From Clostridia bacterium (lineage in GTDB: Bacteria; Bacillota; Clostridia; RGIG6154), in contig JAGAJK010000067.1 of NCBI GenBank assembly GCA_017626145.1, positions 1 to 49,701 on the forward strand: a DNA stretch of 49,701 nt, read 5' to 3'. Both the position numbers and the translations under genes were made by a program. Of this stretch, positions 5,789-42,461 are shown piece after piece (within the stretch, counting starts at the first letter, position 1; each line of letters begins with the position of its first letter). The notes below the pieces were generated by a model. That model had not been told where the DNA came from. It ran no database searches and saw only the letters and a list, made by a program, of their open reading frames with translations.

Positions 5789-7156
5789 TTATAATACAAT
5801 TGAATCCTTGAAAATTGAGATTTCACGGTATGAATTAATTTCGTTTTTGGTTTCTTTACCCGATGCCACTTGTATTATGTAATCAAAGAATTTTTCGTCC
5901 AAATCTTCTCCGTTTAAAACAGGTGATGCATCAAAATCAATCCAGCTACTTTTTTTCGTTGCCAGGTTTTCGTTGGTTGCAACCTTAACTGTAGGAACAG
6001 GTGCACCCAAGGGAGTACCTCTTCCCGTGGTGAACAAAACCATATGTACACCGCAGGCAGTTAAATTGGTTATTGCAACTATGTCGTTACCGGGGCCGTT
6101 TAAAAGTGAAAGTCCGTTTTCCTTTAAAGTATCACCGTAATTCAATACATCCACTATTTCACCCTGACCGCCCTTTTGAATACAGCCGAGGGATTTTTCC
6201 TCTAACGTTGTGATCCCGCCTGCCTTGTTGCCGGGTGACGGATTTTCGTAAACAACCTGATTGTGGTTTGTGAAATAGTCTTTAAAATTATTTACCAGAC
6301 TAACTGTTTTATTGAAAATTTCTTCATTTTTGCAACGTTTCATTAAAAGGTGCTCTGCACCGAACATTTCCGGCACTTCCGTCAAAACACAGCTTCCGCC
6401 ATAAGAAATCAGCATATCGGAAAACCGTCCCACAAGAGGATTTGCAGTAATTCCCGAAAGGGCGTCACTTCCTCCACACTTTAAGCCTACCTTTAATTTT
6501 GAAACGGGTATATCTTCCCTTTCGAAGTTTGAAGCATATTCCTTCAGCTCATTTATAAGCTTAATACCCTCCGAAATTTCGTCATCAAAGTCCTGACAGT
6601 TTAAAAACTTCACTCTGTTTTCGTCTACCTTGCCAAGAACCTTTTTAAATTCTTCTATATTATTATTTTCACAGCCAAGACCTAAAACTAAAACTCCTCC
6701 TGCGTTAGGGTGATTTACAAGTCCCTTTAAAATAAGCTGTGTGGTTTTATGGTCGTCACCTAACTGTGAACAACCGAAAGGATGAGGAAAGCTAAAGGCT
6801 CCCGTTTCCTTTGAAAGGCGTTCCGAAATTTTGTTAACACAGCCAACCGTGTTAACAATCCAGATGTCGTTTCTTATTCCCACATCACCGTTTGGGCGAA
6901 GGTAGCCTTTAAAGGTTTTGTCCGTTTTAATCTTTTTTTCAGGAGTGAACTTTGTATAGCTGTACTCAATCTTACCCGAAAGATTTGTCTTTAAATTATG
7001 AGTATGAACGTGTTCACCTTTTTTAATATCCTCTGTTGCGTGACCTATTGCTTCACCGTATTTTATTATATTTTCGCCCTTTTTTATATCGCAGAGGGCG
7101 TACTTATGTCCGTTGGTTAAATTAACCTCAACATTATCTTTTTTATTTATAACCAT
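5789..7156 (-). CDS. uxaA: Altronate dehydratase
   Basis: A 455-residue enzyme converting D-altronate to 2-keto-3-deoxygluconate in galacturonate catabolism. Residues 1-~85 are the SAF domain (YALCDIKKGENIIKYGEAIG, then G-E-H-V-H-T-H). The rest is the UxaA/GarD catalytic region, with GYLRPNGDVGIRN, FPHPFGCSQLGDD, GLKCGGSDALSGITANP and TTGRGTPLGAPVPT, all typical of the family. It is somewhat shorter than the ~495-residue E. coli enzyme, but the ending looks complete. It is the last gene of the operon and its start overlaps the uxaB stop by ten bases. These dehydratases use iron; the metal is family knowledge. Confidence 0.92.
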   Translation of the reverse strand: MVINKKDNVEVNLTNGHKYALCDIKKGENIIKYGEAIGHATEDIKKGEHVHTHNLKTNLSGKIEYSYTKFTPEKKIKTDKTFKGYLRPNGDVGIRNDIWIVNTVGCVNKISERLSKETGAFSFPHPFGCSQLGDDHKTTQLILKGLVNHPNAGGVLVLGLGCENNNIEEFKKVLGKVDENRVKFLNCQDFDDEISEGIKLINELKEYASNFEREDIPVSKLKVGLKCGGSDALSGITANPLVGRFSDMLISYGGSCVLTEVPEMFGAEHLLMKRCKNEEIFNKTVSLVNNFKDYFTNHNQVVYENPSPGNKAGGITTLEEKSLGCIQKGGQGEIVDVLNYGDTLKENGLSLLNGPGNDIVAITNLTACGVHMVLFTTGRGTPLGAPVPTVKVATNENLATKKSSWIDFDASPVLNGEDLDEKFFDYIIQVASGKETKNEINSYREISIFKDSIVL

Positions 7157-19571: not shown

Positions 19572-21947
19572 TCATAGTGTTTCTGCATAGCGTACAGCAG
19601 TCATTGCATCCTTGCCGTAGAAATCAGCACCCATCGCATCGGCGTAGGTCTTTGTCAGCACCGCACCGCCAACCATTGTTTTGCACTCAGGATATTTCTC
19701 CTTAAGCAGTCTTATTGTTTCCTCCATTGCAGGAACGGTGGTGGTCATTAAAGCACTAAGTGCCACAAGTCTTGCCTTTTCCTTTATTGCAGCAGACACA
19801 ATTGCCGAAGGCTCAACATCCTTGCCCAGATCTATTACATTATAGTCGTAATTTTCAAGAAGAACCTTAACTATATTTTTCCCTATATCGTGTATGTCGC
19901 CTTTAACGGTGGCTATTATAACCGTATATTTCTTTTCCCTGCTTCCTCCCTTTAAGGCGAGACTTTCCTTTATTACATCAAAGGCTGACTTTGCCGCCTC
20001 GGCACTCATTAAAAGCTGAGGAAGAAAAAGCTTCTTTTCCTCAAAGCCCTTACCCACAAAATCGAGTGCAGGAATAACATATTTGTTTATCACATCAAGA
20101 GGAGCTTCCTTTTCAAGAGCCTTTCTTGCACAAGATGATGCATCCTCCTTTAAGCCCTTCTTTATGGAATACATAAGCCTGTCTCCGCAATCCATATCCG
20201 ACACCGCCTGAACAGGCTTTGTATCAGTCTGAACAGCTGCAAAGGCTATATATTTTTCAAAGCTCGTGTCAAGATTGCAAAGAGCAAGAAAGCTGTAATA
20301 CGAGGAAAGCATATCCTCTGCAAAAGGATTCATAATTGCCGCTGAAAGTCCTGAAAGAAGTGCCATTGTAAAAAATGAAGAATTTATTAAATTTCTTGCA
20401 GGAAGTCCGAAAGAAACATTTGAAACTCCAAGGCTTGTTTTGATTCCCATTTTTGTAAGCATTTTTATGCATTCAAGAGTAACAAGTGCCGACTTAGGGT
20501 CTGAGCTTACCGTCATTGCGAGGGGGTCAACAATAATATCCTTTTTGTCTATGCCGTAGTTTGACGCCTCCGAAATAATTTTCTCAGCTATTTGTATTCT
20601 TCCCTCTGCCGTTTGAGGAATACCCGTCTCATCAAGAGTAAGCGCAATTATAACACCGCCGTATTTTGCCGCAAGCGGGAAAATCTTTTCCATTGATTCT
20701 TTTTTTCCATTAACGGAATTAATAAGTGCTTTACCGTTATAACAGCGAAGTGCCTTTTCCATTGCGTCAATATTTGTTGTGTCAAGCTGTAAAGGAAGGT
20801 CGCACACCGCCTGCAATTCCTCTGTCACCTTAACAAGCATTTCAGCTTCGTTAATTTCGGGAAGACCTACGTTGACATCTAAAACCGCAACTCCCTTTTC
20901 TGCCTGCTTAAGCCCTTCATTTAAAATGTATTCAATATTATTTTCACGAAGTGCCTGCTTAAACAGCGGCTTGCCCGTAGGATTTATACGTTCACCGATT
21001 AAAATGGGTTCTTTGTCAAAAATTACGCCCTTTGTGTATGAGCTTATAACAGTTATATTCTTATTTCCGGGATACGTATACGGTATATCTTGCGTAAGAC
21101 TTACTGTTTCTTTTATATGTGCAGGTGTTGTTCCGCAACAGCCACCAAGAATTGAAGCACCCATAAGTGCAATTTCTTTCATTAAACAGGAAAATTCATC
21201 GGCATCTACCGCAAAGGTGGTTTTGCCGTTTTCAAAAACCGGTAAGCCTGCATTGGGATTAACTATAACAGGCAGAGAGCTGTATTTTACATACTGCTCA
21301 ATTATTGGCTTCATTTTATCAGGTCCCAAGCTGCAGTTAACACCGATAGCATCAACCCTTAAGCCCTCAAGCATAGCAACCATAGCAAGAGGTGACGCAC
21401 CCGTCATCAGCTTTCCCGATTCATCGTAGGCGTTTGTTACAAAAACAGGAAGTGAAGAATTCTCCTTTGCCGCCAGAACTGCCGCCTTTGTTTCAAGACA
21501 ATCGTTCATGGTTTCAATTAAAATAAGGTCAACACCGTTTTTCACACCCAGCTTTACCGTTTGGGCAAAAGCTTCAACCGCCTTTTCAAATTCCATATCC
21601 CCCAATGGCTTTAAAAGCTTGCCGGTAGGCCCTATGTCGAGCGCCACAAATTTATCCTTAAACCCGCTTTCGGCAATTGCTTCTCTTGCGTTTTCAACGC
21701 CCTTTGCAATTATTTCCTCAAGCTCGGTTTTATCAAACTTCAAAATATTTGCACCGAAGGTGTTGGTCTTTAAAATGTCCGCTCCTGCTCTAAGGTAATC
21801 AAGGTGAATGTTTTTAACAATTTCACTTTTTTCTACATTCCATTTTTCGCACTTTTCACCGGGCTTTAGTCCCTTTTCCTGAAAAAGAGTACCATAGCCG
21901 CCATCGAAATAAAGCCTTTTCTTTTTTAATAAATCGGTAACCTTCAT
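19572..21947 (-). CDS. metH: Cobalamin-dependent methionine synthase, core without activation domain
   Basis: A 791-residue enzyme methylating homocysteine from methyl-tetrahydrofolate. Residues 1-~290 are the homocysteine/zinc domain, with zinc ligands C205 (GVNCS) and C270-C271 (GGCCGTTPAH). Residues ~310-570 are the pterin-binding barrel (LIGERINPTG, VDVNVGLP-like LDVNVGLPEI, NSVNGK, GVSNVSFGLP). Residues ~580-665 are the cobalamin cap. Residues ~668-791 are the B12 domain with GDIHDIGKNI, where H686 is the lower cobalt ligand. The ~300-residue reactivation domain of E. coli MetH is missing; a shortened relative is encoded by the preceding gene. It is last in a four-gene operon. Confidence 0.93.
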   Translation of the reverse strand: MKVTDLLKKKRLYFDGGYGTLFQEKGLKPGEKCEKWNVEKSEIVKNIHLDYLRAGADILKTNTFGANILKFDKTELEEIIAKGVENAREAIAESGFKDKFVALDIGPTGKLLKPLGDMEFEKAVEAFAQTVKLGVKNGVDLILIETMNDCLETKAAVLAAKENSSLPVFVTNAYDESGKLMTGASPLAMVAMLEGLRVDAIGVNCSLGPDKMKPIIEQYVKYSSLPVIVNPNAGLPVFENGKTTFAVDADEFSCLMKEIALMGASILGGCCGTTPAHIKETVSLTQDIPYTYPGNKNITVISSYTKGVIFDKEPILIGERINPTGKPLFKQALRENNIEYILNEGLKQAEKGVAVLDVNVGLPEINEAEMLVKVTEELQAVCDLPLQLDTTNIDAMEKALRCYNGKALINSVNGKKESMEKIFPLAAKYGGVIIALTLDETGIPQTAEGRIQIAEKIISEASNYGIDKKDIIVDPLAMTVSSDPKSALVTLECIKMLTKMGIKTSLGVSNVSFGLPARNLINSSFFTMALLSGLSAAIMNPFAEDMLSSYYSFLALCNLDTSFEKYIAFAAVQTDTKPVQAVSDMDCGDRLMYSIKKGLKEDASSCARKALEKEAPLDVINKYVIPALDFVGKGFEEKKLFLPQLLMSAEAAKSAFDVIKESLALKGGSREKKYTVIIATVKGDIHDIGKNIVKVLLENYDYNVIDLGKDVEPSAIVSAAIKEKARLVALSALMTTTVPAMEETIRLLKEKYPECKTMVGGAVLTKTYADAMGADFYGKDAMTAVRYAETL

Positions 21948-21962
21948 ATATGTAAAACCTTT

Positions 21963-22631
21963 CTATAAATTCCGTCTGAACTGACAGTTTTCCTTATCAC
22001 ACATCTCACACCCCGACAAAGCACAGCCGTTATTAATTTCACTTACTCCCATAACTGCCGTAACGGATTTTGTGGGCACCATCATAAGTGAGTCGGTAAG
22101 GGTGACACCTGTGTACTTCGTTGCATCAAGAGTGTTTATTATATTTTTCTGATAATTTATATCAAAATCACCGTAGCCGGGACTAAAACGCGGACGGAGA
22201 AACATACCATTAAGCTTTTCTTCCTTTGCGATGCTTTCGCAGAACAAATCACACCAGCCTTCAACAAGAGCCGCTCCCACAGCCTGAGCAATTACCGCCC
22301 TGGCAGGGGAAAGTGTACTGTAGCGGTTGATGATTCTGTCAACCTCAACACCTGCCGTTGCCGCAAAAATGTAAACACTTTGGCACCCCTTCAGATTTTT
22401 TAAAAGTGCCGTCGATTTAACCTCTCCTATCCCGAAGGACAGCTCTTTTTCGTTAAACTCATTTTTTGTATAACACAATTTAAAGCTTGCCGCTTTTTCA
22501 AGCTCTTCCTTGATTTCCAAAACAAAGGCTTCCGTACTCTTGTCAATAGAAACGCTCTTTACACCCGAATATCGGTAAACCTCTTTTATGTCTGCGGTAA
22601 TTTTCTCTTCACTATTGAACAGGTAAATCAT
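21963..22631 (-). CDS. Methionine synthase reactivation-domain protein
   Basis: A 222-residue stand-alone relative of the MetH activation (AdoMet-binding) domain. It contains the RPRFSPGYGDF block, close to the R-x-x-PGY motif of that domain, and ends in a cysteine cluster (CALSGCEMCDKENC). It is expected to support reductive methylation of the cobalamin in the core MetH encoded 15 bases downstream. Family precedent: Clostridia and Thermotoga with split MetH. The C-terminal cysteines may hold a metal or Fe-S cluster for electron delivery (inference). The start overlaps the hydE stop (ATGA), so translation is coupled. Confidence 0.85.
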   Translation of the reverse strand: MIYLFNSEEKITADIKEVYRYSGVKSVSIDKSTEAFVLEIKEELEKAASFKLCYTKNEFNEKELSFGIGEVKSTALLKNLKGCQSVYIFAATAGVEVDRIINRYSTLSPARAVIAQAVGAALVEGWCDLFCESIAKEEKLNGMFLRPRFSPGYGDFDINYQKNIINTLDATKYTGVTLTDSLMMVPTKSVTAVMGVSEINNGCALSGCEMCDKENCQFRRNL

Positions 22632-23662
22632 TTTTTAACATCCCCACGACTGCAAACCACCTCATAGCCTGCTTCCTTTACGGTTCTGCGGAGCTTTTCA
22701 ACAGACTCCGCCGCCTCTTCATCGGTTGCGATTTTATCCTTATAAAGTGAATACAGCTTTCTTACATTCTGCGGAGAAAGATTTGGCATAACAACATTCG
22801 CCCCTGCCTTAAGACCCATCTGTCTGCCCTGGGGATGAATGGTTCCAAGTGCCGTAGTTGACGGGATAAGGGCATAGGGAAACATAAGTCTTAATATGGA
22901 AACAAGTCTTATTGTAAGAAATAAGTCTCCGCTTTGTTTATCGTAAAAAGGTGTATCCTTATGTGTAATATAAGGTCCTATCCCTATCATATCGGGACCA
23001 AGCTCCTGCAAAAACCTGAGGTCGGCAATTATATTTTCAACAGTCTGATACGGTGAGCCTACCATAAAGCCCGACCCTGTCTGAAACCCGATTTCCTTTA
23101 AAGTAAATAAGCACTCTTTTCTGTATTCAAGGCTCATTGAATCCGGATGAAGCTTTTTGTAATGCTCCTCTGTTGCCGTTTCGTGACGGAGCAGATAACG
23201 GTTTGCACCTGCATCAAAATACTTTTTGTAGCTTTCGGCAGGCTTTTCGCCCAGAGAAAGAGTAATCGCACAGTCAGGATATTTACTGCGTATGGAATAA
23301 ACAATATCCGTTACGGTATCGTCGTTAAAATAAGGGTCCTCTCCACCCTGCATAACAAAGGTTCTGAAGCCCAGCCCGTAGCCTTGCTCACAGCAATACA
23401 AAATATCCTCTTTTGTAAGACGGTAACGGGTTAAATTTTTGTTCTCTCCCCTTATACCGCAGTAATAACAATTATTTTTACAGTAATTGGATATTTCAAT
23501 AAGACCGCGAATGTAAACATCACGGCCGTAAATTTCCTGACGAGCCTTATCTGCCTCCTGCATTAGCATACTGTCAAAACGATCGGTTACAAGTATCTGT
23601 CTTAATTCGTCATCTGTAAGATTATGTTGTTTTGCTAATTTTTTAACCAATTCCATCACCAT
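22628..23662 (-). CDS. hydE: [FeFe]-hydrogenase maturase-type radical SAM protein HydE
   Basis: A 344-residue radical SAM protein with the BioB-like barrel. C61-x3-C65-x2-C68 (NYCKNNCYYCGI) binds the 4Fe-4S cluster. RHETA, GSGFMVGSPYQT, GIGPYITHKDTPF and TTALGTIHPQGRQMGLKAGANVVMPN match HydE closely, a protein needed for assembly of the hydrogenase H-cluster. HydF and HydG are not nearby. It lies instead between a DUF554 gene and the methionine synthase genes, with overlapping starts and stops, so one operon is likely. An alternative start three codons in (23656) is possible. PylB is a related family but fits less well. Confidence 0.88.
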   Translation of the reverse strand: MVMELVKKLAKQHNLTDDELRQILVTDRFDSMLMQEADKARQEIYGRDVYIRGLIEISNYCKNNCYYCGIRGENKNLTRYRLTKEDILYCCEQGYGLGFRTFVMQGGEDPYFNDDTVTDIVYSIRSKYPDCAITLSLGEKPAESYKKYFDAGANRYLLRHETATEEHYKKLHPDSMSLEYRKECLFTLKEIGFQTGSGFMVGSPYQTVENIIADLRFLQELGPDMIGIGPYITHKDTPFYDKQSGDLFLTIRLVSILRLMFPYALIPSTTALGTIHPQGRQMGLKAGANVVMPNLSPQNVRKLYSLYKDKIATDEEAAESVEKLRRTVKEAGYEVVCSRGDVKK

Positions 23663-24514: not shown

Positions 24515-25144
24515 ATGACAGAAATTTTATATGAAGATAAAAATTTAATATTCTGTGTAAAAGAAGCAGGCATTTCCTCTGAAACGGAGCTGCCGCAGGC
24601 ACTTAAGGAACAGACAAAAAGCGATATTTTTCCCGTTCACAGGCTTGATACTCCCGTTGGAGGAGTTATGGTGTATGCCAAAAACAAGCAAACTGCGGCA
24701 CTTATGAGCGATAAAATTGCCGGAAACGATGACTTCGAAAAAACCTACCTTGCGGTATGCGAAGGTGAATTTGATGAAAAAAGCGGTTATATGGAGGACC
24801 TGCTTTTTAAGGATTCACGCAAAAACAAAAGCTTTGTTGTTAAAAAAGAGCGTAAGGGTGTTAAAAAGGCTTTGCTTTACTACGAAATCCTCGGAGCGGC
24901 AGAGTACAAACAAAAACGTGTTTCTCTTGCAAAGGTTACCCTTAAAACAGGCAGAAGCCATCAGATAAGAGTTCAATTTGCAAGCCGCAGACACCCGCTT
25001 GCAGGTGACGGTAAATATGGCAGTAAAATAAACTGCCCCATTTCCCTCTTTTCCCACAGCATAAAAACCTGCAAAAAAGCTGTAACCAAAAATCCGCCCG
25101 ACCTGGAGCCATGGAATTTATTTAAAATAATACTTGACAAATAA
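24515..25144 (+). CDS. RluA-family pseudouridine synthase
   Basis: A 209-residue RNA pseudouridine synthase. The catalytic aspartate is D45 in VHRLDTPVGGVMVYAK. The GRSHQIRVQFA motif and HPLAGDGKYG follow in the usual order. There is no N-terminal S4 domain, so this is the short single-domain form, comparable to RluA/TruC types. The target uridine, in rRNA or tRNA, cannot be told. The start follows GGTGG closely. The end of the gene overlaps the -35 box of the downstream T-box promoter. Confidence 0.9.
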   Translation: MTEILYEDKNLIFCVKEAGISSETELPQALKEQTKSDIFPVHRLDTPVGGVMVYAKNKQTAALMSDKIAGNDDFEKTYLAVCEGEFDEKSGYMEDLLFKDSRKNKSFVVKKERKGVKKALLYYEILGAAEYKQKRVSLAKVTLKTGRSHQIRVQFASRRHPLAGDGKYGSKINCPISLFSHSIKTCKKAVTKNPPDLEPWNLFKIILDK

Positions 25145-25162
25145 AAAAAGTTGATATATAAT
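25134..25162 (+). promoter_or_regulatory. Promoter of the T-box transcript
   Basis: TTGACA (25134-25139) inside the last codons of the rluA-type gene, a 17-base spacer, and TATAAT (25157-25162). Transcription should begin near 25169 and run through the T-box leader. Confidence 0.85.
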
Positions 25163-25168
25163 TGTTTT

Positions 25169-25454
25169 AGCTTAAAATTTAATAACCAAAGGCTGTGACG
25201 AAGACGGTCGGAAAAAGGAGTTTCGAGAGAGTTGGCGGTTGCTGTGAGCCAACAACAAGCTTTTCCAATGACTTATCACTTCCGAGCCGAGGGTTGAACG
25301 GATTGATCAAGTAAACCTCTCCGAGAACTGCATCGTTAAGGCAGAGGGCTTGATAGAGCCTGCTAAGCGGCGTGCATTGTACGCAATTTGAGTGGTACCG
25401 CGGATATGAAAGTATATTCGTCTCAAACAAAAGTTTGTTTGGGGCGATTTTTAT
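25169..25454 (+). ncRNA. T-box riboswitch
   Basis: The leader shows the order of T-box parts. Stem I has a GTGA/TCAC base, a specifier internal loop, GAGAGAG, and a GGTTGCTGTGA distal loop flanked by TTGGC/GCCAA. The conserved T-box sequence AGTGGTACCGCGG lies at 25391-25403. An intrinsic terminator follows at 25419-25446 (CGTCTCAAAC with GTTTGGGGCG, then T-rich). The 3'-strand of the specifier loop is AATGACTTA. By alignment to B. subtilis glyQS the codon could be CTT (Leu); ATG (Met) is an alternative. The TGGT bulge predicts a tRNA with discriminator A, which argues against GAC (Asp) or AAT (Asn). Confidence 0.9.
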
Positions 25455-25478
25455 TTGCCCCTGAAAGGAGTAAAAATT

Positions 25479-27746
25479 ATGAGTTATCAGTTAAAAGAGG
25501 TAGCAGAAAGAATCAGAACCCTTCGTGAAATCGCAGGTCTCAGCGAAGGTGAAATGGCAAAGCTTACCGATGTAACAGAAAAAGAATACTTAGAGCTTGA
25601 AAAAGGTGAGGTTGATTTTAACTTTAACTTCATTTACAAGTGTGCTGATGTTTTCAAGGTTGAAATGAAGGATATCTTAGAGGGAAGCAGTCCTAAGCTT
25701 TCACTTTATACAGTTACCAGAAAGGGCGAAGGCTCCCCTATTGTAAAGCGTTCAGGTCATGTTTACAATAACCTTTCACCACGCTTCAAGGGAAAAGCGG
25801 TTGAACCGTTTTTCGTAACAATCCCCTACTCTCCCGATGATGAGCCTGTATTCAGCTCTCACGAGGGTCAGGAGGTTGATATCGTTATCAAGGGTAAAGT
25901 TAAAATACAGATTAACGACCGTGTTGAAATCTTAAAAGAAGGCGACACAATTTATTATAACAGTTCATACCCTCACGCAATTTCTGCAACAGGCGGCAAA
26001 GATGCGGAAATCTATGCATTTGTTGTTAAGTCAACTGCAGACGGAAAGCCCGTTTCGGAAATGGACGTTGAACCTGAAGTAGTTCACGCTGCAGATTCTG
26101 AGGTTGCAAGCAGATTCATAAAGACCAAAACAGATGAAAAAGGCGTTCTTACAGATATCAAGTTCAAAAATGAGGATAAATTCAATTTTGCTTTTGACTG
26201 TGTTGACAGAATTGCTGAAAAGAATCCTGATAAGGTTGCTATGGTATGGGTATCAAACGACAGACAGACAGAATATAAATTCACCTTCGGTGATATGAAA
26301 AAGTATTCGGCTATGACAGCAAATTACTTCGAATCCCTTGGCATCAAAAAGGGCGACAGAGTAATGCTTGTTTTAAAGAGACATTATCAGTTCTGGTTCT
26401 CTATACTGGCACTTCACAAAATCGGCGCAATCGTAATTCCTGCAACAAATCAGCTTGTAGAACACGATTTTGATTACCGCTTCAAAGCAGCAGGTGTTAA
26501 AGCAATCGTTTGCACCTCTGACGGAGATGTGGCAAATCAGGTTGAGCTTGCAGCTAAAAACTTCCCCGATATGATCAAAGTTTCTGTGGGTGAAAAAAGA
26601 GAGGGCTGGAAGGATTTCAACAGTGAGCTTACTCTCCAGAGCGATGTTTATAAAAGAACAGAAGACACTCCCTGCGGCAACGATCCTATGCTTATGTTCT
26701 TTACATCAGGCACAACAGGCTATCCTAAAATTGCATGCCATTCATACAAGTATGCACTTGGTCATTATATAACAGCAAAATACTGGCACAACGTTAACCC
26801 CAACGGACTTCACTTTACAATTTCAGACACAGGCTGGGGCAAAGCTCTCTGGGGTAAGCTATACGGTCAGTGGCTTTGCGAAGCTGCAGTATTTACATTT
26901 GACTTTGACAGATTCAAATCGGAAGAAATTCTCCCTATGTTCGCAAAATACGGTATAACAACCTTCTGTGCACCTCCTACTATGTACCGTTTCTTTATCA
27001 AGGAGGACTTGTCAAAATATGACCTTTCTTCAATAGAATATGCAACAACAGCAGGCGAAGCTTTGAATCCTGAGGTTTACTATCAGTTCAAAAAGGCTAC
27101 AGGTCTTAAAATTATGGAAGGCTTCGGTCAGACCGAAACAACTCTCGTTCTTGCAAACCTTGTAGGAACTGTTCCGAAAATCGGTTCAATGGGTAAGGCA
27201 AGTCCACTTTACGATGTTGTTCTTCTTAACGGAGAGGGCAAGGAATGTAAAGCAGGTGAAACAGGTGAAATCTGCATCAGAACCACAAAGAAAACACCTT
27301 GCGGTCTGTTCCTCGGCTATTACCTTGACGACGAAAAAACAAAAGAAGCGTGGTACGACGGTTATTACCATACAGGTGACCAGGCTGTAATCGACGAAGA
27401 CGGCTACTTCACCTACGTAGGCAGAATTGATGATGTTATCAAATCATCAGGCTATAGAATCGGACCATTCGAAATCGAAAGCGTAATAATGGAGCTTCCT
27501 TACGTTCTTGAGTGTGCAATCACCGCTGCTCCCGACCCTGTTCGCGGTCAGGTAGTAAAAGCAACAATAGTGCTTGTTAAAGGAACAGAGGGCACTTCAG
27601 AACTGAAAAAGGAAATTCAGAACTACGTTAAAACCCACACCGCTCCTTACAAATATCCAAGAATAGTTGATTTTGTAACCGAGCTTCCAAAAACAATCAG
27701 CGGAAAAATCAGAAGAGTCGAAATCAGACAGAACGACAATAAATAA
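25479..27746 (+). CDS. XRE-cupin-AMP-binding (acyl-CoA synthetase) fusion protein
   Basis: A 755-residue three-part protein; start at 25479 after AAAGGAG. Residues ~4-68 form an XRE helix-turn-helix, ~110-185 a cupin barrel (HEGQEVDIVIKG, LKEGDTIYYNSSYPHAISA), and ~210-750 an acyl-AMP ligase. Ligase motifs are MLMFFTSGTTGYPK, the GFGQTETT substrate/ATP block, YHTGDQAVIDEDGYFTYVGR, and the catalytic lysine in LPKTISGKIRR. The ligase resembles medium-chain or acetyl-type acyl-CoA synthetases. The fused regulator suggests that it may sense its substrate and act on DNA. It is controlled by a T-box, unusual for this enzyme class, which links it to an amino acid; a branched-chain or other amino-acid-derived acid is a possible substrate (inference). 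Confidence 0.87.
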   Translation: MSYQLKEVAERIRTLREIAGLSEGEMAKLTDVTEKEYLELEKGEVDFNFNFIYKCADVFKVEMKDILEGSSPKLSLYTVTRKGEGSPIVKRSGHVYNNLSPRFKGKAVEPFFVTIPYSPDDEPVFSSHEGQEVDIVIKGKVKIQINDRVEILKEGDTIYYNSSYPHAISATGGKDAEIYAFVVKSTADGKPVSEMDVEPEVVHAADSEVASRFIKTKTDEKGVLTDIKFKNEDKFNFAFDCVDRIAEKNPDKVAMVWVSNDRQTEYKFTFGDMKKYSAMTANYFESLGIKKGDRVMLVLKRHYQFWFSILALHKIGAIVIPATNQLVEHDFDYRFKAAGVKAIVCTSDGDVANQVELAAKNFPDMIKVSVGEKREGWKDFNSELTLQSDVYKRTEDTPCGNDPMLMFFTSGTTGYPKIACHSYKYALGHYITAKYWHNVNPNGLHFTISDTGWGKALWGKLYGQWLCEAAVFTFDFDRFKSEEILPMFAKYGITTFCAPPTMYRFFIKEDLSKYDLSSIEYATTAGEALNPEVYYQFKKATGLKIMEGFGQTETTLVLANLVGTVPKIGSMGKASPLYDVVLLNGEGKECKAGETGEICIRTTKKTPCGLFLGYYLDDEKTKEAWYDGYYHTGDQAVIDEDGYFTYVGRIDDVIKSSGYRIGPFEIESVIMELPYVLECAITAAPDPVRGQVVKATIVLVKGTEGTSELKKEIQNYVKTHTAPYKYPRIVDFVTELPKTISGKIRRVEIRQNDNK

Positions 27747-27757
27747 ATAAAGTTTTC

Positions 27758-27796
27758 AAAAGCTCTGTGTCCCTTTCGGGGAACGGAGCTTTTATT
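27758..27796 (+). terminator. Terminator after the acyl-CoA synthetase fusion
   Basis: AAAAGCTC (27758-27765) pairs with GAGCTTTT (27786-27793), with an inner CCC/GGG stem, followed by T-rich sequence. It begins 11 bases after the stop codon. The rest of the 221-base gap holds only the next promoter. Confidence 0.8.
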
Positions 27797-41111: not shown

Positions 41112-42461
41112 CTATCGTGTACTTTCTTGATCTTTAGTTTTGATTTTTGGTTTATTTTTCTTTGAACGCTCCAACTCTGCTTCTTGTTCAAGTCTTTGTG
41201 CTTCGTTATACTTTTCATTGATACGCTCCGAATCAATCAAAATATTGTTGCATATTCTGACCTTTGCCCGAAGCTCCTTCAGCTCTGTATTTATATTTGC
41301 GATTTCTCCTTTAGCTTCAGGCTTGTGGTATAACCTTGACCGTTTCAATGTCAGTTCTGAAATTCTTTCTTCCGACTTTTGCTTTATTTCAAGAAGTTGA
41401 GCAGTGGTTTCAATATCATTGTCGTAAAGAAAATGAAACTGATTTTGGTATCGTTCGAATTTTATAATCTCCTCTCTAAGATAGAAGCATACTCTTTGTG
41501 GTGGTTCCCTTTTTCGTATCTTACCGAACAGATATAAGTAATGGTAATACAGAGCCTTGAAGCCTTTGAGTTTTATCGGCTCATATTTTTCAAGCCAAGC
41601 GTTGTAGTCAGGTTTGGGTTTATTTATTTCCAAAAGCTTTATACCATTTCTTGCCGCAATAATACGCTCATTTATCGCATCGGGAGTATAGTATTTACCA
41701 AGATTATCAAGACGAACATATTTTTGAGCATAGGTTGGTTTTACAGCGATATATTTGCCCGTATTCTTAACCTCATATCCTCTGCGTTTCAGTTCTCTCC
41801 AAAAATCTTTCGTTGTATATGAGCCTTCTATAATACCGTCAATCTCATCCCTTATCTGTCCTCGAATTGTAGGGTAGCCATTTTTTTCTGCCATCCACTC
41901 AGCATAATGCTTACCCTTGCTTTTAGGATTTCGTATTACTGACAGATTATATTCTTCACATAGCCTATCAGAAATCTGTTTCATCTTATTGTAATTTGCG
42001 GTATTGTCATAATACTTCTTACCATCTGCAAAGGACACAGAGTTAATTACAAAGTGATTATGTAGATGTTCTTTATTCAGGTGAGTTGCTATTACCACCT
42101 CGAACCTATTGCCCCACATTTCTTTTGCAAGTCTTTTTCCGATTTCATGTTCAATTTCGGGTGTAACCTCTCCCGGCTTAAAACTCTGTATAGCGTGGAA
42201 TGCTACGATACCGTCTGTCTTACCATAACGAAGCTTTGTTTGATGCATTTTGTACTTTGCCATATCGGGCGTTGTGTTAACGCCCGATACATATAAGCTT
42301 CGTTCCGTTTTATAATCATCGGAAGCATAATCCATAACATCGTGGAGAGCTTGTATTTGCTTTTCGCTATAACGCTTTCCTTCGGTCTTTTCAGGATTGG
42401 CAGCATAATTTATAAGCGTATCAATCCTGCCTTTTATGTCCCATATTTTTGTTGTTGCCAT
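41112..42461 (-). CDS. MOBP-type relaxase (MobA/VirD2 family)
   Basis: A 449-residue DNA-nicking relaxase. The catalytic three-histidine motif is visible as H-L-N-K-E-H-L-H-N-H-F-V-I-N-S (~residues 130-144). The early tyrosine-containing stretch (INYAANPEKT) near residue 18 supplies the candidate nucleophile. The C-terminal ~200 residues are helical and charged, usual for primase-less MobA proteins of Clostridia. It overlaps the MobC gene by 28 bases. It would nick the element's oriT and lead the strand into a helper's secretion channel. No coupling protein is encoded here. Confidence 0.88.
   Translation of the reverse strand: MATTKIWDIKGRIDTLINYAANPEKTEGKRYSEKQIQALHDVMDYASDDYKTERSLYVSGVNTTPDMAKYKMHQTKLRYGKTDGIVAFHAIQSFKPGEVTPEIEHEIGKRLAKEMWGNRFEVVIATHLNKEHLHNHFVINSVSFADGKKYYDNTANYNKMKQISDRLCEEYNLSVIRNPKSKGKHYAEWMAEKNGYPTIRGQIRDEIDGIIEGSYTTKDFWRELKRRGYEVKNTGKYIAVKPTYAQKYVRLDNLGKYYTPDAINERIIAARNGIKLLEINKPKPDYNAWLEKYEPIKLKGFKALYYHYLYLFGKIRKREPPQRVCFYLREEIIKFERYQNQFHFLYDNDIETTAQLLEIKQKSEERISELTLKRSRLYHKPEAKGEIANINTELKELRAKVRICNNILIDSERINEKYNEAQRLEQEAELERSKKNKPKIKTKDQESTR

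Follow-up and report, generated by a model that had tools for sequence, protein, structure and literature searches.

Why a tRNA-sensing riboswitch should stand in front of an acyl-CoA ligase gene is the question raised by this locus, a T-box leader within a window of 49,701 nucleotides (the whole stretch of DNA that was analysed) from a Clostridia bacterium draft genome. The leader was the sole Rfam match in the window: cmscan placed the T-box model RF00230 at 25186-25428 (+), spanning stem I, the stem II/III region and the antiterminator, and the match covers the full model (1-219) and scores 99.5 bits (gathering score 93, E 8e-21). It is preceded by a sigma-70-type promoter (TTGACA-17-TATAAT, 25134-25162, 12/12 consensus matches; 2 promoter-type sites were found against 0.8 expected in shuffles), from which transcription would start near 25169; all features described here for the leader and its gene lie on the + strand. 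The antiterminator (25387-25427, fold -10.3 kcal/mol) is closed by the arms TTTGAG (25387-25392) and CTCAAA (25422-25427) and carries the T-box bulge UGGU (25393-25396), complementary to the terminal ACCA of an A73 tRNA. The segment CGTCTCAAAC is common to this fold and to the hairpin of an intrinsic terminator at 25418-25455, in which 13 pairs (25418-25447; -16.7 kcal/mol, z -7.0, 0/200 shuffles as good) are followed by the U tract TTTTTATTT. The two structures are mutually exclusive, i.e. a UGGN bulge sits in an antiterminator that competes with a terminator.

Promoter, antiterminator, terminator and full-length Infernal match confirm that the T-box is real, although the word textbook, used in the original prediction, goes a little too far, as the score is barely over the cut-off and the specifier loop lacks the usual AGUA/GAA motif. 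In the alignment to the model the window has gaps where AGUA would be, and a GGUC/GACU helix stands in their place; the motif is common among T-boxes, not universal, and its absence was not treated as decisive. The switch elements recur in the related leaders described below, with the antiterminator arms complementary in 65/65 (6/6 pairs in 61 and 5/6 in 4) and the TGGT bulge present in every one. No tRNA-Ile gene was recovered from the same draft genome by BLAST or by pattern; its A73 and GAU anticodon are predictions.

The downstream gene (25479-27746, ATG at 25479 after AGGAG) encodes 755 aa and is followed by its own terminator (27758-27793, fold -21.0 kcal/mol, z -4.85), so the window ligase forms a single-gene unit. 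As originally described, it is an XRE-cupin-AMP-ligase fusion, comprising an XRE-like HTH (residues 10-68, 25506-25682; HTH_19/HTH_3 around or below the Pfam cut-off), a Cupin_2 domain (residues 121-180, 25839-26018; 41.8 bits against a cut-off of 27.2) and an AMP-forming acyl-CoA synthetase with AMP-binding and AMP-binding_C domains (residues 243-743, 26205-27707). XRE-cupin proteins are usually regulators, and the fused part might add a transcription factor role, i.e. a second layer of control exerted via an acyl-CoA or amino acid. Free-standing XRE-cupin genes do adjoin Vor and ligase genes (L134, L135), and in Parabacteroides XRE-cupin and ligase are separate adjacent genes, but the borderline HTH scores of the fused protein and an acidic recognition helix, with a median net charge of -2 over orthologs, speak against DNA binding and make this role unlikely. 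Elsewhere in the window, cobalamin methionine synthase is represented by two separate pieces, a MetH-like core (19572-21947) and a protein with the activation domain (21963-22631), next to a HydE gene (22628-23662); the three together span 19572-23662. A MobA/VirD2-type relaxase gene (PF03432) at 41112-42461 suggests that the right-hand part of the window contains a mobile element.

A single genome scan yielded 80 orthologs from gut Clostridia, 61-80% identical to the window gene; the genomes examined are almost all metagenome drafts. The leader is kept in 66/80 orthologs and therefore belongs to the ligase gene, which rules out a recent insertion of the leader and bears out the original proposal that an acyl-activating enzyme is tied to uncharged tRNA, insofar as the leaders bind tRNA as predicted. 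For 15 orthologs with upstream sequence available, no T-box was found there at the gathering score (L059-L065, L067, L071, L073, L081, L082, L086, L096 and L100); they come from Ruminococcus flavefaciens-like, Monoglobus-like and related genomes, and all have Gly at position 454 of the ligase. The window's own genome holds a second such fusion, likewise under an Ile T-box (L008). Its gene appears to be broken across two contig ends (L138 2244-3815 on contig C74 and L139 1-783 on contig C29); the ligase part is 82% identical to that of the window and the XRE-cupin part only 50%, a difference that may reflect gene conversion.

The nearest solved structure to the ligase is MacsMa (3ETC; 645 bits, 54.5% identity over 521 residues). 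This enzyme of Methanosarcina acetivorans prefers 2-methylbutyrate and has Gly in place of the acetyl-specific Trp416 together with an alternate Trp259 (PMC10455477). The window ligase has in common with it the GWGK motif, the pocket Trp (W436) and the Gly for Trp416 (G550), the last two present in 86/86 sequences; MacsMa differs in being archaeal and in having neither an XRE-cupin part nor a T-box. Among NCBIfam models the best match is MbcS (NF047394), at 441.5 bits far below the equivalog cut-off of 850. MbcS of S. aureus, which works in branched-chain fatty acid synthesis, has a KM below 10 uM for 2-methylbutyrate and isobutyrate and above 500 uM for isovalerate (PMC10026030). These two favoured acids are the carbon skeletons of Ile and Val, both amino acids named by the T-boxes of this family. 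Relatedness to MacsMa and MbcS makes branched-chain acids, already suggested in the original prediction, the best guess at the substrate, and the window ligase is regarded as a MacsMa/MbcS-type enzyme that probably activates 2-methylbutyrate.

The gene neighbourhoods place this enzyme in a pathway. In three relatives the whole cluster reads Ile T-box, ligase, Val T-box, ligase, ATPase, VorB, VorA and VorC, with the start of IlvE visible after VorC in two of them, and in a fourth a Val T-box precedes a ligase, an ATPase and VorBAC. The window ligase has no Vor gene adjacent; in its own genome the Vor genes lie on contig C70 under a Val T-box (GUA), in the order non-fused ligase, MetY, MetA, IlvE, ATPase, VorBAC and XRE-cupin, where VorB at 549 bits (curated cut-off 399) and IlvE at 507 bits (curated cut-off 307) are both clear matches, as would be expected of a branched-chain amino acid cluster of the reductive carboxylation type. 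A POR-gamma search found 2-oxoacid oxidoreductases in every genome tested. In about 20 of 40 genomes a POR-gamma gene follows the ligase on the same strand, at a distance of 2.8 or 5.4 kb; contig identity was checked for five and the others were matched by coordinates, and some further distances may be coincidence. Judged by its genes, the relatives' cluster corresponds to the set that reductive carboxylation would require for making Ile from 2-methylbutyrate and Val from isobutyrate. Since VorBAC and a branched-chain aminotransferase are encoded next to orthologs, the simplest view of the ligase is that it catalyses the first step of this route, and the statement that the T-box does not precede an amino acid biosynthesis gene was misleading: the ligase gene very likely is one after all.

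A different use of the same acyl-CoA is conceivable, in which it would prime the synthesis of branched-chain fatty acids, as with MbcS of S. aureus, and the T-box would tie the supply of membrane lipids to Ile status. The MbcS match and the lack of an adjacent Vor gene in the window agree with such a role. However, the MbcS score falls well short of its cut-off, the ligases of relatives have VorBAC and IlvE beside them instead of lipid genes, and the pairing of ligases, one under an Ile and the other under a Val T-box, suits amino acid synthesis better, so that a lipid function appears distinctly improbable.

The assignment to isoleucine depends on the specifier, which is read as AUC at 25275-25277. 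It lies inside a 5-nt bulge, UAUCA (25274-25278), opposite AC, and follows the TBDB rule that gives priority to place 2-4 from the bulge end (PMC7778990); AUC is also the codon in 99% of Ile T-boxes in that database (PMC7778990). Covarying helices flank the N-AUC-N bulge on either side. Below it, GAAG (25200-25203) pairs with CTTC (25279-25282), and this combination occurs in 48/55 Ile-type leaders, others including AAAG/CTTT and GAAA/TTTC; directly above it, GGTC (25206-25209) pairs with GACT (25270-25273), and this helix is paired in 191/220 cells of the 55 Ile-type leaders (shuffles gave 159 on average and 176 at most), and changes occur on both sides of the helix. Among the 65 readable leaders, i.e. 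those with stem I complete, counting the window and its paralog, the specifier is AUC in 56 and GUA (Val) in 9, always in the same register, and the position of the codon is fixed while the bases flanking it vary. In the window's own genome AUC occupies the same register before ilvA and the second fused ligase, and the same spacing gives ACC before thrS and CUC before a leuA-like gene; in the Tyr-type leader UAC lies one base further.

Some of these own-genome T-boxes have features of their own. The leader of the threonine dehydratase gene (L007 1501-1927 and L010, contig C28) consists of two tandem stem I-III units, of which only the downstream one, with specifier AUC, has an antiterminator and terminator; the specifier of the upstream unit is CUC in one register and AUC in another. 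The Leu T-box (CUC, L002; L137 2545-6419, contig C2) precedes a short leuA-like protein in which synthase models match two separate stretches, and the next gene encodes 819 aa, of which ~270 form an N-terminal extension ahead of a FadD-like ligase. The Tyr T-box (UAC, L001) on contig C51 heads a locus (L136 1501-9304) that begins with an SSS-type symporter and a FadD-like ligase and continues with IorA (726 against 651 bits), IorB (295 against 230), a PaaK-like ligase and a short protein; from its gene content, it may represent an aryl-acid version of the same T-box/ligase logic.

A Ser specifier (UCN, +1 frame) was rejected, as it would read UAG or UAA in the GUA leaders and the bulge is UGGU; serine tRNAs carry G73. 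A Leu (CTT or UUA) or Met (ATG) specifier, with which the gene would answer to another amino acid, is contradicted by the alignment and very hard to credit, and the original prediction, which favoured CTT or ATG, was wrong on this point. The sequence does contain CTT (25272-25274) and ATG (25268-25270), and UGGU suits A73 tRNAs generally, but both triplets vary freely among orthologs and are out of register with the other T-boxes of the genome, CTT lies mostly within the covarying helix, and orthologs carry CCC, CCT or CCA at its site, whereas AUC is fixed (AUC or GUA in 65/65 readable leaders).

The amino acid named by the leader is mirrored in the enzyme at a single position. Residue 454, which directly follows the D-x-G-W motif (DTGW in the window, Gly454 codon at 26838-26840), is Gly in ligases with an Ile T-box and Ala in those with a Val T-box. 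We take its counterpart in Salmonella Acs to be Val310, a residue of the acetate pocket, and by this correspondence it would sit at the acyl pocket. In the first set of sequences it was the only column of the catalytic domain that fully separated the AUC and GUA groups, and in a larger set Gly454 was found in 59/59 AUC ligases and Ala454 in 31/31 GUA ligases. In tandem clusters neighbouring ligases differ in Gly/Ala in line with their Ile/Val T-boxes, and the non-fused ligase of contig C70, which branches far outside on the ligase tree, has Ala454 and a Val T-box. The tree holds about two label changes, i.e. 1-2 independent contrasts in addition to the distant C70 ligase, so the link between residue and specifier is presented as a consistent pattern and no statistical claim is attached to it. 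At one further locus (L042, ~6200-7100) the second tandem ligase has Ala454 and its T-box reads CTG by spacing, possibly Leu. That specifier and specificity were switched together, with Ile T-box and Gly454 standing for 2-methylbutyrate and Val T-box and Ala454 for isobutyrate, is put forward as a proposal with about an even chance of being right.

Taken together, the observations on the leader, on the register of the specifier and how well it is conserved, on the operon partners and on residue 454 are best explained by an Ile T-box (tRNA-Ile, AUC, UGGU/A73) that gates a ligase feeding 2-methylbutyrate into isoleucine, a model in which we place considerable confidence. In isoleucine shortage, uncharged tRNA-Ile would bind and steady the antiterminator, and the ligase gene would be transcribed. 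The ligase would then convert external 2-methylbutyrate, its presumed substrate, to 2-methylbutyryl-CoA, from which VorBAC, encoded on contig C70, could form 3-methyl-2-oxovalerate by reductive carboxylation for amination by IlvE to isoleucine. A flux in this assimilating direction would be natural, because a sensor of uncharged tRNA turns genes on during starvation and because activating an acid costs an AMP-forming ligase ATP. The presence of a tRNA sensor before an acyl-CoA ligase gene would then make sense, as activated 2-methylbutyrate can be rebuilt into isoleucine. IlvD had no match in two of five family genomes (the close relatives G001 and G003, one of which is 98% complete). The window's own genome has two IlvD-type genes in addition to the T-box-controlled ilvA; the classical isoleucine route probably also exists there, and the ligase route may therefore be a supplement.

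In relation to known systems, the locus resembles the T-boxes of Firmicutes amino acid biosynthesis genes in its stem I specifier, UGGN bulge, antiterminator/terminator switch and a target in amino acid supply, but differs in that the target is an acyl-CoA ligase and the specifier loop lacks AGUA/GAA, taking the form of a short AC/N-AUC-N bulge. No report of a T-box joined to an acyl-CoA ligase, to Ior/Vor or to reductive carboxylation was found in the open-access literature, of which coverage was incomplete; the mechanism is ordinary for a T-box, and the acyl-CoA ligase is likely to be new as a class of target. 2-Methylbutyrate and isobutyrate are described as rumen precursors of Ile and Val (PMC7356843, citing original work). 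The reductive carboxylation of branched volatile acids in rumen bacteria studied by Allison and colleagues (cited in PMC7356843) concerns the same acids, the same amino acids and the same habitat as many of the orthologs, but the accessible descriptions of this physiology mention neither the ligase nor its T-box.

The formation of Val and Ile from isobutyrate and 2-methylbutyrate by rumen and gut anaerobes has been known to physiologists for decades, and the data propose a gene for a step of it, together with the control of that gene. Furthermore, likely substrates are assigned to a large family otherwise named only 'AMP-binding protein'. If the joint switch of specifier and residue 454 is true, paired tRNA-gated modules would choose which branched acid becomes which amino acid, and the codon of a riboswitch would tell the substrate of an enzyme.
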